A stretch of DNA of 64,000 nucleotides from Luteitalea sp. (lineage in GTDB: Bacteria > Acidobacteriota > Vicinamibacteria > Vicinamibacterales > Vicinamibacteraceae). Below are positions 31,025-36,804 of this stretch, in pieces. Position numbers and translations under genes: made by a program. The notes beneath the pieces are model-generated. The model had not been told where the DNA came from, ran no database searches, and was given only the letters and a program-made list of their open reading frames with translations. Numbering within the stretch: position 1 is the first letter of the stretch; each line of letters begins with the position of its first letter. The stretch covers positions 1 to 64,000 of the forward strand of contig WHTT01000023.1 of assembly GCA_009377605.1 (NCBI GenBank). The letters are read 5' to 3'.

Positions 31025-31150
31025 AGGGATCAAGGGGTAAAGGGATAGGATAAAGGGATTGAGGGATCAAGGGAGACTGCGGATGTTGGGCGCCGCCGTC
31101 GCTTGAACCCCTGAATCCCTTCAGCCCTTGGTCCCTTCGGCCTTTACCCT
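31018..31150. repeat. Inverted low-complexity spacer, AAGGGATC / GATCCCTT type
   Basis: The left half repeats AAAGGGATCAAGGGG and AAAGGGATTGAGGG; the right half repeats CCCCTGAATCCCTT, CCCTTGGTCCCTT and CCTTTACCCTTGA. The halves are complementary enough to fold into a long imperfect hairpin between kinase and regulator. The first bases also encode the last residues of the kinase. Confidence 0.8.
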
Positions 31151-31160
31151 TGAAAAGAAC

Positions 31161-32657
31161 ATGAAGCAGCACGGAACTGTCCTGGTTGTTGACGATGAAG
31201 AGGTGATGCGTGAGGTGCTCGAAACGCTTCTAACGCGTGAGGGGTACCAGGTACGTCTTGCCGCGAGCGGATCGGAGGGCCTCGAGATTGCCCGCTCGAT
31301 GCCGTTCGATGCGGCCATCGTCGACATCATGATGCCTGGCCTCGATGGCATCAGCACCCTGGAAGAGCTCAAGAGGATCGATGAGGAGCTCCCAGTGCTG
31401 ATGCTGACGGCTTTTGCCTCGGTCGAGACCGCCATCGCGGCAATGAAGCGGGGCGCGTTCGACTACATCTCCAAGCCGTTCAAGAACGACGAAGTGCTCG
31501 TGGTCCTCCGTAACGCGGTCGAGCGCCGGCGCCTCGTCAACGAGAACCGCGCGCTCAAACAGAGCCTCCAGCACGGCGCGATCAAATTCGACAGCATCAT
31601 CGGCCGGAGCGGGAAGATGCGAGAGGTGTTCAACCTCGTCATCCAGGTCGCACCGAGCCGTTCGACGGTCCTCGTGTGCGGAGAGAGTGGCACAGGCAAG
31701 GAGCTGATCGCACGAGCCCTGCATACGCACTCCACGCGCGCCGAGAGGTCGTTTGTCACCGTGAACTCCGGTAACCTGCCGCCCGACCTGCTGGAGTCGA
31801 ACCTCTTCGGTCACGTCAAGGGGGCGTTCACGGGGGCGATCGCGCCCAAGAAGGGGCTGTTCGAGATTGCCGACAAGGGGAGCATCTTCTTCGATGAGAT
31901 CGGCACCGTGCCCGTCGACACGCAGGCCAAGCTGCTGCGTGTGATGCAAGAGCGCGAGTTCATGCGCCTCGGCGGCGTGGAAACGATCAAGGTCGATGTG
32001 CGCATCATCGCGGCGACCAACGTCGACCTGCAGCAGTTGACAGAGGAGGGGAAGTTTCGAGAAGATCTCTACTACCGACTGCACGTCATCGCCGTGGCGC
32101 TTCCTCCTCTCCGCGAGCGCAAGGAGGACATCCCGCTGCTGGTGCAGCACTTTCTGGAGAAGTACGGCGAGGAGAACAACCGCAAGGATATCGAGCTCGC
32201 ACCGGACGCACTGGACCTGCTGATGGAGTACGGCTGGCCCGGCAACGTGCGGGAGTTGGAGAACGTCGTCGAGCGGGCGGTCGTCCTGGGCTCAGGTGAC
32301 CGGATTGGACCCGAGCTCATTCCGGATCAGGTCAAGGGCCAGCGCCGCTTCCAGCTTCCTTCCATCGTCGTGCCGCCCGACGGCATCTCGTTCAAAGAGG
32401 TGACCGGCAACTTCGAGCGGCAGCTCATCGAGGCGACGCTCGAGGCCGCCGGTGGCGTCCAGAAGAAGGCGGCGGAGCTCCTGCACATCAAGCCGACGAC
32501 GCTCAACGAGATGATCAAGCGATACGACATCCGGCCACGCCGCAAGAGAGCTGGCGCAGACGATGGTGGCCGCGTCTCGGTGGCTGAGGAAGAGGCGGGC
32601 GTGGAAGAGTCCGCAGGACAGGTGCCCGCCGCGGTCGGCGAGTCACGTGAGGACTAA
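31161..32657 (+). CDS. Sigma-54-dependent response regulator (NtrC family)
   Basis: 498 residues from ATG 31161. The receiver domain occupies residues 1-120 (VLVVDDEEVM; phospho-accepting Asp at about 55 in IVDIMMPG; Lys in FDYISKPF). The AAA+ central domain has Walker A GESGTGKE (174-181), the sigma-54-contacting GAFTGA (221-226), Walker B FFDEIGTV and the R-finger region REDLYYRLHVIAVALPPLRER. The C-terminal Fis-type helix-turn-helix (TLEAAGGVQKKAAELLHIKP) is followed by a 40-residue acidic tail. It is the obvious partner of the upstream PDZ kinase and would activate sigma-54 promoters. The stop is followed by the left palindromic element. Confidence 0.96.
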   Translation: MKQHGTVLVVDDEEVMREVLETLLTREGYQVRLAASGSEGLEIARSMPFDAAIVDIMMPGLDGISTLEELKRIDEELPVLMLTAFASVETAIAAMKRGAFDYISKPFKNDEVLVVLRNAVERRRLVNENRALKQSLQHGAIKFDSIIGRSGKMREVFNLVIQVAPSRSTVLVCGESGTGKELIARALHTHSTRAERSFVTVNSGNLPPDLLESNLFGHVKGAFTGAIAPKKGLFEIADKGSIFFDEIGTVPVDTQAKLLRVMQEREFMRLGGVETIKVDVRIIAATNVDLQQLTEEGKFREDLYYRLHVIAVALPPLRERKEDIPLLVQHFLEKYGEENNRKDIELAPDALDLLMEYGWPGNVRELENVVERAVVLGSGDRIGPELIPDQVKGQRRFQLPSIVVPPDGISFKEVTGNFERQLIEATLEAAGGVQKKAAELLHIKPTTLNEMIKRYDIRPRRKRAGADDGGRVSVAEEEAGVEESAGQVPAAVGESRED

Positions 32658-33347
32658 CAAGTTCCGCCCTGTACTTTGCGCTCGCTGCTCACTGGGTTCA
32701 GCGCTTTCCGGGGCCGTGGGACGCGGCCCGCGTCGCTCGAACACCCGGTTCCGCCGGCCGGAAAAACACCTCTCCGGCGGCTTGTCACAGCAGGCGTGGG
32801 GCCCCCGAGTACCCCACGCCGGACTCGGCGCCTCCGAGGTGTTTTTCAGACTATCGCGTGACGGCCGGCTCCACAGGGTGTTCTCCGCGACGCGTGCCGC
32901 GTCCCCGGCGCCCACCTCACGACAGCTCCCACGCTGATTGGGACCGTGCTGATTGCACGGCCACAAGGCTGCCGGCCGTCCTTCATGGTGCCTGGGCAGT
33001 GCCCGAGCTGGAGGCGATGGCGGTGCCGGCACCGCTGCCGCCGTGCACAACGTCGCCCGTGTGAACGTACGCTTCGGGTTGACTGCGCGACACCCACAGT
33101 GGTGCAGTGTGCGGCGAGGGGAGAAACTTCGGCAACTTGGTACGAGAGATCGACCACATGATGGAGGAGCCCTCGTGGGCGGCAGCGTGAAATCTGCCTA
33201 CGCGGATGACGAGTGGACGCCCGTCTCACACAGAATCACAACGCGCGGACGTGACATAATTGCTCCGCTTTGTAACGTCCGCGCTCCGTCCGCATCCGGG
33301 CCCTCGTCGAGCGTGACGCGTAGATTGTTAGTCGCGAGAGTGCGCAG
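32658..33347. other. Gene-free stretch with palindromic element and non-coding spacer
   Basis: The left 186-bp element (32719-32904) is described separately. The rest, 32905-33347, shows no recognisable gene in any frame. It is GC-rich up to about 33060, then becomes less so toward the start of the ATPase gene. Promoter signals for that gene would lie in 33200-33347, but none are convincing. Confidence 0.5.
32719..32904 (+). mobile_element. Palindromic MITE-like element, copy 1
   Basis: A 186-bp near-palindrome. The outer arms GGACGCGG...CGTCGC and GCGACGCG...CCGCGTCC pair, as do AAAAACACCTC at 32762-32772 and GAGGTGTTTTT at 32836-32846, and the apical GGCGTGGGG/CCCCACGCC around a ten-base loop. 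Copy 2 at 35831-36016 is its inverted equivalent with 8 mismatches. No transposase or coding sequence inside. It starts 61 bases after the NtrC gene stop. Confidence 0.8.
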
Positions 33348-35677
33348 ATGGGCAATGGTGAAACCTTTGTTGCGCATGCTTCGATGCCGCGAGCCATTGG
33401 CGACACGATCGAAGCAGCAGTTCGACAGATCCAGGACCGCTCAGGCCTGTCCACGATCAAGACTTGGATAGAGACTGACATAGCCGGTCGCTTCGTTGGA
33501 ACGGAGGTCCTCGGCGCGATAGCAAGTTCAACACACTTCCTTGCAGATGTGACGGTTCTCAACTTCAACGTGACCTACGAGATTGGGTACGCGATCGGCC
33601 TTGAGAAACCCCTGGTCCTCGTACGAAATGCAGCAATTCAGGACGCTGGGCCCACTATTGGCGAGGTCGGTGTCTTCGATACCCTCGGTTACCGGACTTA
33701 CGAGAACTCGTCAGACCTCTCCGCGATCTTCCGGGCCATACCTGAAGCCAAGCCTATCAGATTGCCTCCAGCTGAGCTGAATCGCAAGGCGCCAGTGTAC
33801 GTCACCGACGCGAAGTTCAAGACCGATCCGGCGACACGTATTATCGCCAGAGTAAAGAAGGCCCGTTTGGGCTTCCGGAGCTTCGACCCGAATGAACAGC
33901 CGCGCTTGTCTGGTCCCGATGCGATTCGTCAGGTCGCACAGTCGTTTGGCATCTTGGTTCACTTTGTTCCCAACACGGTTGCCGACGCCCGCGTTCACAA
34001 CCTTCGAAGCGCTTTCCTCGCTGGCTTGTCCCATGGGATGGGGAGAGTCACTCTGCTATTGCAGAACGGGGATGAGCCAGTGCCTATCGACTACAGAGAC
34101 CTCGTTGTTGCGTTCTACCATCCCGACCAGATTGACGAATCAGTAGCAGAGTTTGCGACGAGGGTAACCGAAGCCTTTCAGGTTTCCGTTGAATCGCCGG
34201 TCCGAGTGCCCAGGAACCTTCTGGAGAAGGTGAACCTTGGAGCGTCGTCAGCTGAGAATGAACTACGCGACCTCGCGGAGTACTACCTTGAGATCAACGC
34301 ATACCAGCGCGCCCTGCGCGGAGACGTGCGAGTTGTCGTTGGGCGTAAGGGGTCAGGTAAATCGGCTATTTTCCATCGCGTGAGGGATCGCATTCGGTCT
34401 GCCAAGGGCAACATCGTTCTGGATCTCAAGCCAGAGGGCTACAAGCTCTTGAAGTTCAAGGAGGACGTACTCAGGCTCATGACGTCTGGCACCCTGGAGC
34501 ATACGGTCACGGCGTTCTGGGAGTACCTGCTGCTGCTTGAGATTTGCTACAAGATCCTTGAAAAGGACCGAGTCCCTCACACTCGTGATCCGCGACTGTT
34601 TGAGCCGTATCGCTCTCTCGCGGGTGCCTATGATTCCGATCTCTACGTAGGCGAAGGAGATTTCTCTGAACGTCTATCGGTATTGCTGGAGCGCATTGGG
34701 TCGGAATTCAAAGCCAAATACGGAAGCGATGCTCATGTACGGCTGTCTGAGGGTCAGCTTACTGAATTGCTCTATGTCCATGACGTGAGGGCGCTCAGGG
34801 AGCAGGTCGAGCGCTATTTGCAACTGAAGGATTCGCTATGGTTGCTATTTGACAACATAGACAAGGGCTGGCCGGCTCATGGTATCCAAGGCGAGGACCT
34901 CGTTATCATTCGGGCTCTCTTGGAAGCGACACGAAAGATTGAAAGGCAGCTTGAGCGCCACGAGGTCGCGTGTAGGACGCTCGTGTTCCTGCGAAACGAC
35001 GTATACGAGCTTCTCGTTCAGCAGACGCCAGACAGGGCAAGGACACGAAGGTCGCCTTGGACTGGACGGATGCGGATCTTCTGCGTGAGTTGCTCAGGCG
35101 CCGTTTCGTCTTTAATGGGTTCGACGAGAATCAAGCGTTCGAGGACATCTGGCGCTCGCTGGCGGTGAGCCATGTCGCCGGAGAGGAGAGTTCTCAATAC
35201 GTGATCGAGCGATGCCTGATGAGGCCTCGGGCTCTACTGGACTTGCTCAATCATTGCCGAAGCGTAGCAATCAATCTTCGGCACGAGCGCATTGAAGAGT
35301 CGGACTTCAGGAAAGGCGTAGCGGCATTCTCTGCGGATCTTTTGGCTGAGATCGGGCTGGAGATCAGAGACGTGCTGGTTGAGGCCGAGAATGTTCTCTA
35401 CGAATTCATCGGCAGCAAGGAGCGCATGCCGTCTTCGGACGTGGAGGCCATTCTGTCGAAGGTTAGCGGGTCAGAGCAAGAGAGAGACGCGTTTCTTGAG
35501 ATCCTCTTGTGGTACGGAGTGCTGGGCTTGGTCAGATTGGACGGAGAGGTGACCTACATCTATTCGGTCAGCTACGACTTGCACCGCCTGCTCGCTGTTC
35601 GGCAGAGGTTGAAGGAGTCAGGCCTAGTCTACGCCATCAATCCGGCCTTCGTGGCCGGCCTAGATGTCGAGGTGTAG
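33348..35677 (+). CDS. Candidate defence protein: tandem TIR/NDT-like modules fused to P-loop ATPase, frameshifted
   Basis: Encoded in two frames (33348-35168 and about 35038-35677) that join into one protein of about 776 residues if one G is restored in the GGG run at 35035-35037. Residues 1-130 resemble TIR/nucleoside-deoxyribosyltransferase folds, with NFNVTYEIGYAIGLEKP at about 72-88, close to the family motif NVxYExGxAxGxxKP. Residues about 148-280 look like a second Rossmann-like module (NLRSAFLAGLSHGMGRVTLL). The ATPase has Walker A GRKGSGKS (332-339), Walker B LWLLFDNID (497-505) and RTLVFLRNDVY, reminiscent of the Sll1717-type P-loop group; this call is by eye. Two sampled 60-base lines are 52% GC versus 68% in a sampled neighbour line, which suggests transfer. 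It is the only gene between two inverted 186-bp palindromes. An NAD- or nucleotide-cleaving abortive-infection role is inferred from domain type only. Confidence 0.75.
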
Positions 35678-36120
35678 CCCGCAGGTCCCCAAAGGCGACT
35701 GGGCGCACTTTCAGAGTACCGTAATCTGCTTACAGTCGACCAGGGGTGTAAGCAGAGACCGCGACCACGCAATGAGCTTAACAAGACTACGCCTCATGAG
35801 AGGGGTGAAGTGCCGAGAGGTGGGCGGCCCGGACGCGGAGCGCGTCGCGGAGAACACCCTGTGGAGCCGGCCGGCACGCGATAGTTTGAAAAACGCCTCG
35901 GAGGCGCCGAGTCCGGCGTGGGGTACTCGGGGGCCCCACGCCTGCTGTGACAAGCCGCCGGAGAGGCGTTTTTCCGGCCGGCGGAACCGGGTGTTCGAGC
36001 GACGCGCTCCGCGTCCGTGGCCCCCGAGCGTCCGAAGGCCGTCATAGCTCGATTGGGTCTGTCGGTATATCGCAGCTCTATGTTCTCGTAGATAGTCCGG
36101 ACCCTTAACTCCTCGCAGCG
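35678..36120. other. Gene-free stretch with palindromic element, copy 2 side
   Basis: Contains a short hairpin GCTTACA...TGTAAGC near 35728-35754 just after the ATPase gene (possible terminator), then the right-hand palindromic element (35831-36016), then about 100 unremarkable bases to the GntR gene stop. Confidence 0.5.
35831..36016 (-). mobile_element. Palindromic MITE-like element, copy 2 (inverted)
   Basis: Reverse-complement copy of the element at 32719-32904. I count 178 identities over 186 positions. Two arm positions differ as pairs: the AC-GT pair region of copy 1 (AAAAACACCTC/GAGGTGTTTTT) reads AAAAACGCCTC/GAGGCGTTTTT here, and an outer C-G pair is A-T here, so pairing is preserved. 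It lies 104 bases from the GntR gene stop. Confidence 0.8.
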
Positions 36121-36804
36121 CTACTGAGCCTGCCGCAGATCTTCCACGAGCGCTTGTCCCGCACGCCGAATGTGACGATCCAGCAGTGACACGAGACGAG
36201 CCGTGTCCCGGGCTTCGATCGCCTCCAGGATGGCGCGGTGCTCGCGCCGCTCTTCGACGAGCCGGGGCTCGTCCGGCCGCCGGCGCAAGTGAATGCGCGC
36301 AATGGTCAGGTGCGCATTCTGATTGCGATAGAGCTCGGCGAGTCGCCGATTGCCCGAGGCTTCCACGAGCAGCGTGTGTAGCTCGACGTTGTGCCGTTCG
36401 TGTTGCAGGCGATCGCGATCGGTCGCCACGGGCCGATCGAGCGCCTCGACGATCGCGGTGAAGCGGGCGAGCAGGCCAGGCGTGAGGCGGGCGCCGATCG
36501 TCTCAGCCGCCAGGCACTCCAGGGCCCGGCGGATTTGGAAGATCTCGGCGACCGCCTCCGGCGTGAGGCCCGCGACAAATGTGCCGCTGCGCGGACGGAT
36601 CTCGATGAGACCCTCGGCGGCCAGGCGGTTCACGGCGTCTTTGACTGGTGTGGCACTCACGCCGAGCTGGTGCGCCAAGGCCCGGACGTCGAGACGCTGG
36701 CCCGGGCGAAAGACGCGGGTGAGGATCCTCTCGCGGATCACCTCGAACACCGAATCCGACGCGCGGGCACGATCGAGCTTGGGAAGTGTGGGCACGGCCG
36801 CCAT
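36121..36804 (-). CDS. GntR family transcriptional regulator, FCD subgroup
   Basis: 227 residues. N-terminal winged helix (VIRERILTRVFRPGQRLDVR, LAHQLGVSATPVKDAVNRLA) and an all-helical FCD effector-binding domain. That domain has metal-ligand type residues in the usual places (EIFQIRRALECLAAE, ERHNVELHTLLVEASGNRR, EERREHRAILEAIEARD). FCD regulators usually sense sugar acids or other carboxylates. It is the last gene of the aldolase / secreted protein / GH88 unit, 30 bases after the GH88 stop, and is the natural candidate to control the divergent locus. A possible operator word ATTGTAATATCAGA sits just upstream at 36826 and a similar one at 41655. Confidence 0.93.
   Translation of the reverse strand: MAAVPTLPKLDRARASDSVFEVIRERILTRVFRPGQRLDVRALAHQLGVSATPVKDAVNRLAAEGLIEIRPRSGTFVAGLTPEAVAEIFQIRRALECLAAETIGARLTPGLLARFTAIVEALDRPVATDRDRLQHERHNVELHTLLVEASGNRRLAELYRNQNAHLTIARIHLRRRPDEPRLVEERREHRAILEAIEARDTARLVSLLDRHIRRAGQALVEDLRQAQ

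Follow-up and report, generated by a model that had tools for sequence, protein, structure and literature searches.

A probable family of MITE-like hairpins in the Vicinamibacterales that keeps its fold while its arm sequences turn over

The two palindromes found in a 64,000-nucleotide stretch of Luteitalea sp. DNA (the window) are members of an undescribed, order-specific repeat family of ~160-250-base hairpins, in which long-term compensatory change keeps the fold while the sequence of the arms turns over almost completely. The explanation that we favor for the family as a whole, and consider probable, is that these hairpins are MITE-like elements, that is, non-autonomous mobile DNA specific to this order and with a long-lasting fold.

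Paired differences between the two palindromes of the window

The two copies lie in opposite orientation on either side of an ATPase gene, and the features of the locus, followed by the base pairs of the predicted fold that differ between the copies, are as follows.

31128-32657, plus strand: gene for a sigma-54 response regulator that flanks the pair on the left; conserved in the congener G001
32719-32904, plus strand: hairpin copy 1, model orientation plus (covariance model R1, 151 bits)
32847-32860 (limits approximate), plus strand: bulge on the 3' side only of the core, flanked by GTTTTTC and CGGCC
33348-35677, plus strand: P-loop ATPase gene of the Sll1717 family, between the hairpins (ORFs 33348-35168 and 35057-35677)
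35831-36016, minus strand: hairpin copy 2, model orientation minus (covariance model R1, 150 bits)
36121-36804, minus strand: gene for a GntR/FCD regulator that flanks the pair on the right; conserved in the congener G001
32768/32840 in copy 1, 35967/35895 in copy 2: pair 50/122, A-T in copy 1 and G-C in copy 2
32727/32896 in copy 1, 36008/35839 in copy 2: pair 9/178, C-G in copy 1 and A-T in copy 2
32728/32895 in copy 1, 36007/35840 in copy 2: pair 10/177, C.T mismatch in copy 1 and G-C in copy 2

The copies differ at 8 of 186 positions, and their inverted similarity reaches to ~32709-32924 and ~35811-36026 (216 nt, 92%). Six of the eight differences make up three base pairs of the predicted fold, and only positions 131 and 143 (32849 and 32861) differ on a single side. 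When eight positions were placed at random in simulations, the probability that at least three pairs were hit on both sides was 5e-6, and that of at least two compensated pairs was 7e-4. The sequence-only reading of this DNA had counted eight differences in 186 positions, four of which preserved pairing; recomputation in the predicted fold assigns these four to pairs 50/122 and 9/178, and the claim that the arm substitutions covary was correct but slightly understated, since the neighboring pair 10/177 has also changed on both sides. Both a DNA search and the covariance model yielded two palindrome copies in total, and no third, in the genome of the window, so the test of covariation over all copies was moved to related genomes.

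A hairpin family confined to one order

A DNA search of 100 relatives returned weaker matches in 12 other genomes. Of 162 genomes of the same order, 44, belonging to 30 of 86 genera, proved to contain the family when searched with a covariance model built from the consensus hairpin of 24 aligned copies; most genomes of the order lack the hairpin, and copy number ranges from 0 to ~29. The model matched twice in the window's genome, 10-12 times each in G007, G008 and G022, and 29 times in G017, counts that include a few matches that are weak or lie on the reverse strand of a copy already matched. Among the 396 genomes of the phylum that were searched, no genome sampled outside the order contained the family, a distribution to be read as a lower bound because the search filters were strict. 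Rfam 15 held no match over the hairpin at or above the gathering score. A pattern representing the 22-base core had no match in viral contigs, and in genome contigs only its matches in the relative G017 fit the covariance model; matches in Streptomyces and Micrococcales did not fit and were rejected. A phage or plasmid origin was likewise considered and set aside, blastn of copy 1 having given no match. On G059:C25 (L115/L126), a stretch of 9 kb contains three identically oriented hairpin copies, two of them ~1 kb apart, and in G056 a match to 6S RNA (72 bits, L113:339-525) lies ~1 kb from a hairpin copy.

Compensatory change maintains the fold

Each element is a single long bulged hairpin whose outer arms vary freely yet remain self-complementary. 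Inward of the outer arms follow a helix, a one-sided bulge, a helix with an A/T run, internal loops and, at the apex, a GC hairpin. The bulge measures 10-17 nt with 0-1 nt opposite in 101 of 102 copies.

Both-sided change was observed at 11 of 30 pairs in an unconstrained MAFFT alignment of 24 copies, which contained 50 covariation cells versus 13.7 in shuffles, and the observed score was reached in none of 500 shuffles. The check that had been proposed in the sequence-only reading, covariation under a covariance model, was run on 102 copies from related genomes and gave compensatory change at 29 of the 30 core pairs, with 492 cells versus 121 in shuffles and 95% of the cells paired, in an alignment (A2) that was fitted to the model and thus leans towards it. 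Judged by covariation above shuffled controls, the family has a structured fold. Pairing energies of the outer arms, which are independent of any alignment, averaged -67 kcal/mol for arms of the same copy and -39 kcal/mol for arms swapped between genomes. The same comparison within single genomes gave -80 versus -48 in G056 and -72 versus -34 in G035, and a copy's own arms paired better than same-genome swaps in G056, G035, G473, G090, G497 and G498, with arm identity of ~41-46%. The outer arms of different copies are unrelated in sequence, and each copy is self-complementary.

Covariation and own-arm pairing support the earlier proposal that either the folded hairpin is under selection or palindrome-specific copying has taken place, and the bulge and the strand asymmetry described below argue that selection is needed. 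That proposal was to fail if further copies had random mismatches in the arms, and such mismatches are indeed seen in part: most differences within a young 16-copy subfamily of G017 are one-sided, whereas covariation prevails over the 102 copies. Pair 49/121 in G017 is GC in 9 copies, AC in 6 and AT in 1, representing stepwise intermediates. Since the changes in young G017 copies are mostly one-sided, compensation is a long-term outcome that need not be seen in every young copy.

One core under two kinds of transposon ends

Transposon-type terminal repeats and target duplications show that the hairpin has been mobile in two lineages. The G017 copies are near-identical, most of them 182-184 or 225-228 bp long, with ends GGTAGTGGGTCAGTTTGG...CCAAACTGACCCACTACC, and are flanked by 8-bp target duplications that match at at least 7 of 8 positions in 6 of 17 copies (2.2% for re-paired flanks). 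No autonomous transposase with ends of this 8-bp-duplication kind was found near the TIR loci examined in the G017 assembly, which is 87% complete. Elements in G007, G008, G022 and G462 instead carry the IS1380-type ends CCCGGATTATTCATGAA, and exact 4-bp duplications accompany 12 of 27 such elements (expected, 11%), a set that takes in two IS copies and a second, different G007 repeat. These ends also flank IS1380-type (PF13701) transposase genes, one intact (G008, L174) and one with a frameshift (L079). Taken together, the G017 and IS1380-type ends show a single hairpin core combined with transposon ends of two kinds. G007 also contains many copies of a second repeat (L057, L066, L068, L070 and L077), an imperfect palindrome of ~230 bp with IS1380-type ends and 4-bp duplications that apparently lacks the family core.

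With respect to the features by which MITEs are recognized, terminal inverted repeats matching a transposase-bearing element are present in the form of the IS1380-type ends (G007, G008, G022 and G462), and target site duplications are present as 8 bp in G017 and 4 bp with IS1380-type ends, but the window copies have neither: no clear terminal repeats of the IS1380 or G017 type and no target duplication were found at either copy. The elements are noncoding and intergenic, and most copies with defined ends are ~183-300 bp long, compared with 70-300 bp for MITEs. Because the window's genome contains no further copies, the mobility of the window hairpins is deduced from their relatives. Copies within most genomes have arms that differ from one another, unlike those of a recently moving element with fixed ends.

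Selection on the fold, template switching and candidate roles

Template switching during replication is documented and is able to create multi-base compensatory changes (PMC8794818). By copying one arm onto the other (quasipalindrome correction), it would generate covariation without any selection on the fold, which would be consistent with the joint difference of adjacent pairs 9 and 10 between the window copies, with the wholesale replacement of outer arms that keep their complementarity, and with one intergenic site shared by the congeners G035 (L109) and G472 (L233), where the arms of the two hairpins are unrelated. This pair of congeners is the whole of the orthologous-site evidence, and its hairpin cores (identity 0.67, compared with 0.74 for L233 versus L122) are no closer than paralogues, so that independent insertion at the same site is possible. 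A second candidate site, in G070 and G473, was set aside, its flanks showing an inversion and a repeated 3' flank; hairpins of these genomes (L108, L239 and L241) share a longer 3' flank of ~150-180 nt at an apparent inversion boundary between both species. However, template switching should erase the one-sided bulge and the internal loops, yet 101 of 102 copies have kept them; it is also at odds with the stepwise intermediates at pair 49/121 in G017 and, being strand-symmetric copying, does not predict strand-asymmetric mismatches. Such asymmetry, of moderate effect size, was observed among mismatches strictly outside the model, where A.C outnumbers G.T by 96 to 60 (p 0.005; genome-wise sign test, 0.027) and C.T outnumbers G.A by 77 to 35 (p 9e-5; genome-wise sign test, 0.007). 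G.U and G.A are the mismatches best tolerated in an RNA helix. The excess of A.C and C.T corresponds to G.U and G.A on the complementary strand, which suggests that the folded strand is the complement of the model orientation, namely the minus strand for copy 1 and the plus strand for copy 2. Since the near-invariant bulge and the strand-asymmetric mismatches call for selection on the folded strand, we infer that such selection on a folded single strand is probably the reason why the fold is kept. Template switching as the source of the covariation is accordingly rated doubtful; it may contribute to some of the paired changes, and the changes at pairs 9 and 10 may be a single template-switch event.

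What the fold might do was considered in light of gene context. Hairpin copies occupy intergenic gaps between tandem (31), convergent (27) and divergent (10) genes, and their orientation relative to tandem genes is not fixed (19 same, 12 opposite). A bidirectional intrinsic terminator, with a GC stem and five Ts on both strands between genes, would account for the AAAAACGCC/GGCGTTTTT helix present in most copies, for the one terminator-like match in each window copy and for the excess of convergent over divergent neighbors, but it is quite unlikely: in about one fifth of the copies, G-C pairs or TGCATGTGT-type sequence take the place of the A/T run with pairing intact, a scan gave 4 terminator-like sites versus 2.9 in shuffles, and tandem neighbors account for almost half of the copies. 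A structured non-coding RNA (or ssDNA element) with a putative host function, spread by transposition and with its fold selected by the hosts, is a tentative possibility to which the covariation, the fixed bulge, the strand asymmetry, the one intergenic site at which two congeners both carry a hairpin and the occurrence in 30 genera all point, whereas the variable orientation to neighboring genes, the range in copy number and the absence of the hairpin from most genomes of the order argue against it. With similar reserve, the family could be described as a new class of structured nucleic acid particular to this order: a putative RNA (or ssDNA) of ~250 nt, folded in a strand-specific way and having a fixed one-sided bulge, that is dispersed by borrowing differing transposon ends and kept by compensatory evolution during near-complete arm turnover. 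The locus in the window raises the further idea of a composite transposon that carries the ATPase gene and has the two hairpins as its long terminal repeats. The hairpins are the only two copies of their genome, are inverted and 96% identical, and enclose 2.9 kb with a GC content of 0.57 versus 0.64 in the surroundings; between the same two flanking genes, the congener G001 (L170, C12) has a different 2.5 kb with other genes and no hairpin. Nevertheless, a composite transposon is unlikely, given that no target duplication surrounds the whole pair with its insert, that no transposase was recognized between the hairpins, that 160 further genomes of the order yielded no second occurrence of the Sll1717-family ATPase, and that one other inverted pair (G007, C13) encloses a gene resembling an ordinary glgC. 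The ATPase gene bracketed by the inverted hairpins is a foreign gene at a variable spot. It is split by a frameshift near 35045, with profile positions 1-250 and 259-453 falling on the two ORFs, and may be a pseudogene, an assembly error or a case of frameshifting. The 2.5-kb segment of G001 includes a protein with a Fic-like look, and the spot appears to be a site of gene exchange.

A mobile hairpin with disposable arms

According to the explanation that we favor, MITE-like hairpins with a long-lasting fold, resident DDE transposases (IS1380-type in one lineage) would move the hairpin in trans, and the moved copies would settle in intergenic gaps, more often at the 3' ends of genes. Lineages in which one strand retains its fold would persist, and the folded strand, probably the complement of the model orientation, would be either RNA read through from neighboring genes or ssDNA formed in transposition. 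Mobile hairpins are usually recognized by conserved sequence; here the arm sequence is disposable and it is the fold that lasts, and transposon ends of two different kinds carry the same core. The family, which numbers more than 100 copies from dozens of genomes, is a natural data set for telling apart template-switch correction and selection on a fold. This question has been raised for RNA genes in general (PMC8794818).

Comparison with known systems

Two systems were rejected as counterparts of the family. An integron attC site was set aside on the features that the middle of the hairpin is its most conserved part and that the target duplications are of the DDE type, and a retron was set aside with no reverse transcriptase gene noticed on inspection of the surroundings of the window pair. 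IS1380-type elements (PF13701 transposase) share the terminal sequence CCCGGATTATTCATGAA and 4-bp duplications with the elements of G007, G008, G022 and G462; the hairpins differ from them in having no transposase gene, the insertion sequences lack the hairpin core, and the window copies are without IS1380-type ends. ERIC-type palindromes are single long imperfect palindromes located in intergenic regions. The hairpins share this form and location, but in a comparison based on the description of ERIC they differ in the fixed one-sided bulge and in the near-complete turnover of arms with pairing kept. REP units are 20-40 bp long and are linked to RAYT tyrosine transposases (PMC3116915, PMC3733652). 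Like the hairpin family, REP/BIME and REPIN elements are extragenic hairpins that occur dispersed and are predicted to form in ssDNA or mRNA (PMC3116915, PMC3733652), and the family is set apart from them by its single hairpins of ~160-250 nt and by target duplications, of 4 or 8 bp, in two of its lineages. Bacterial MITEs, among which RUP, NEMIS, Nezha and similar elements have been listed (PMC3733652), resemble the family in being short, non-coding and intergenic, in their terminal inverted repeats, in the target duplications seen in some lineages and in an apparent dependence on a resident transposase. Unlike MITEs, the hairpins have a conserved bulged core under two unrelated kinds of ends, and in most genomes every copy has its own self-complementary arms.
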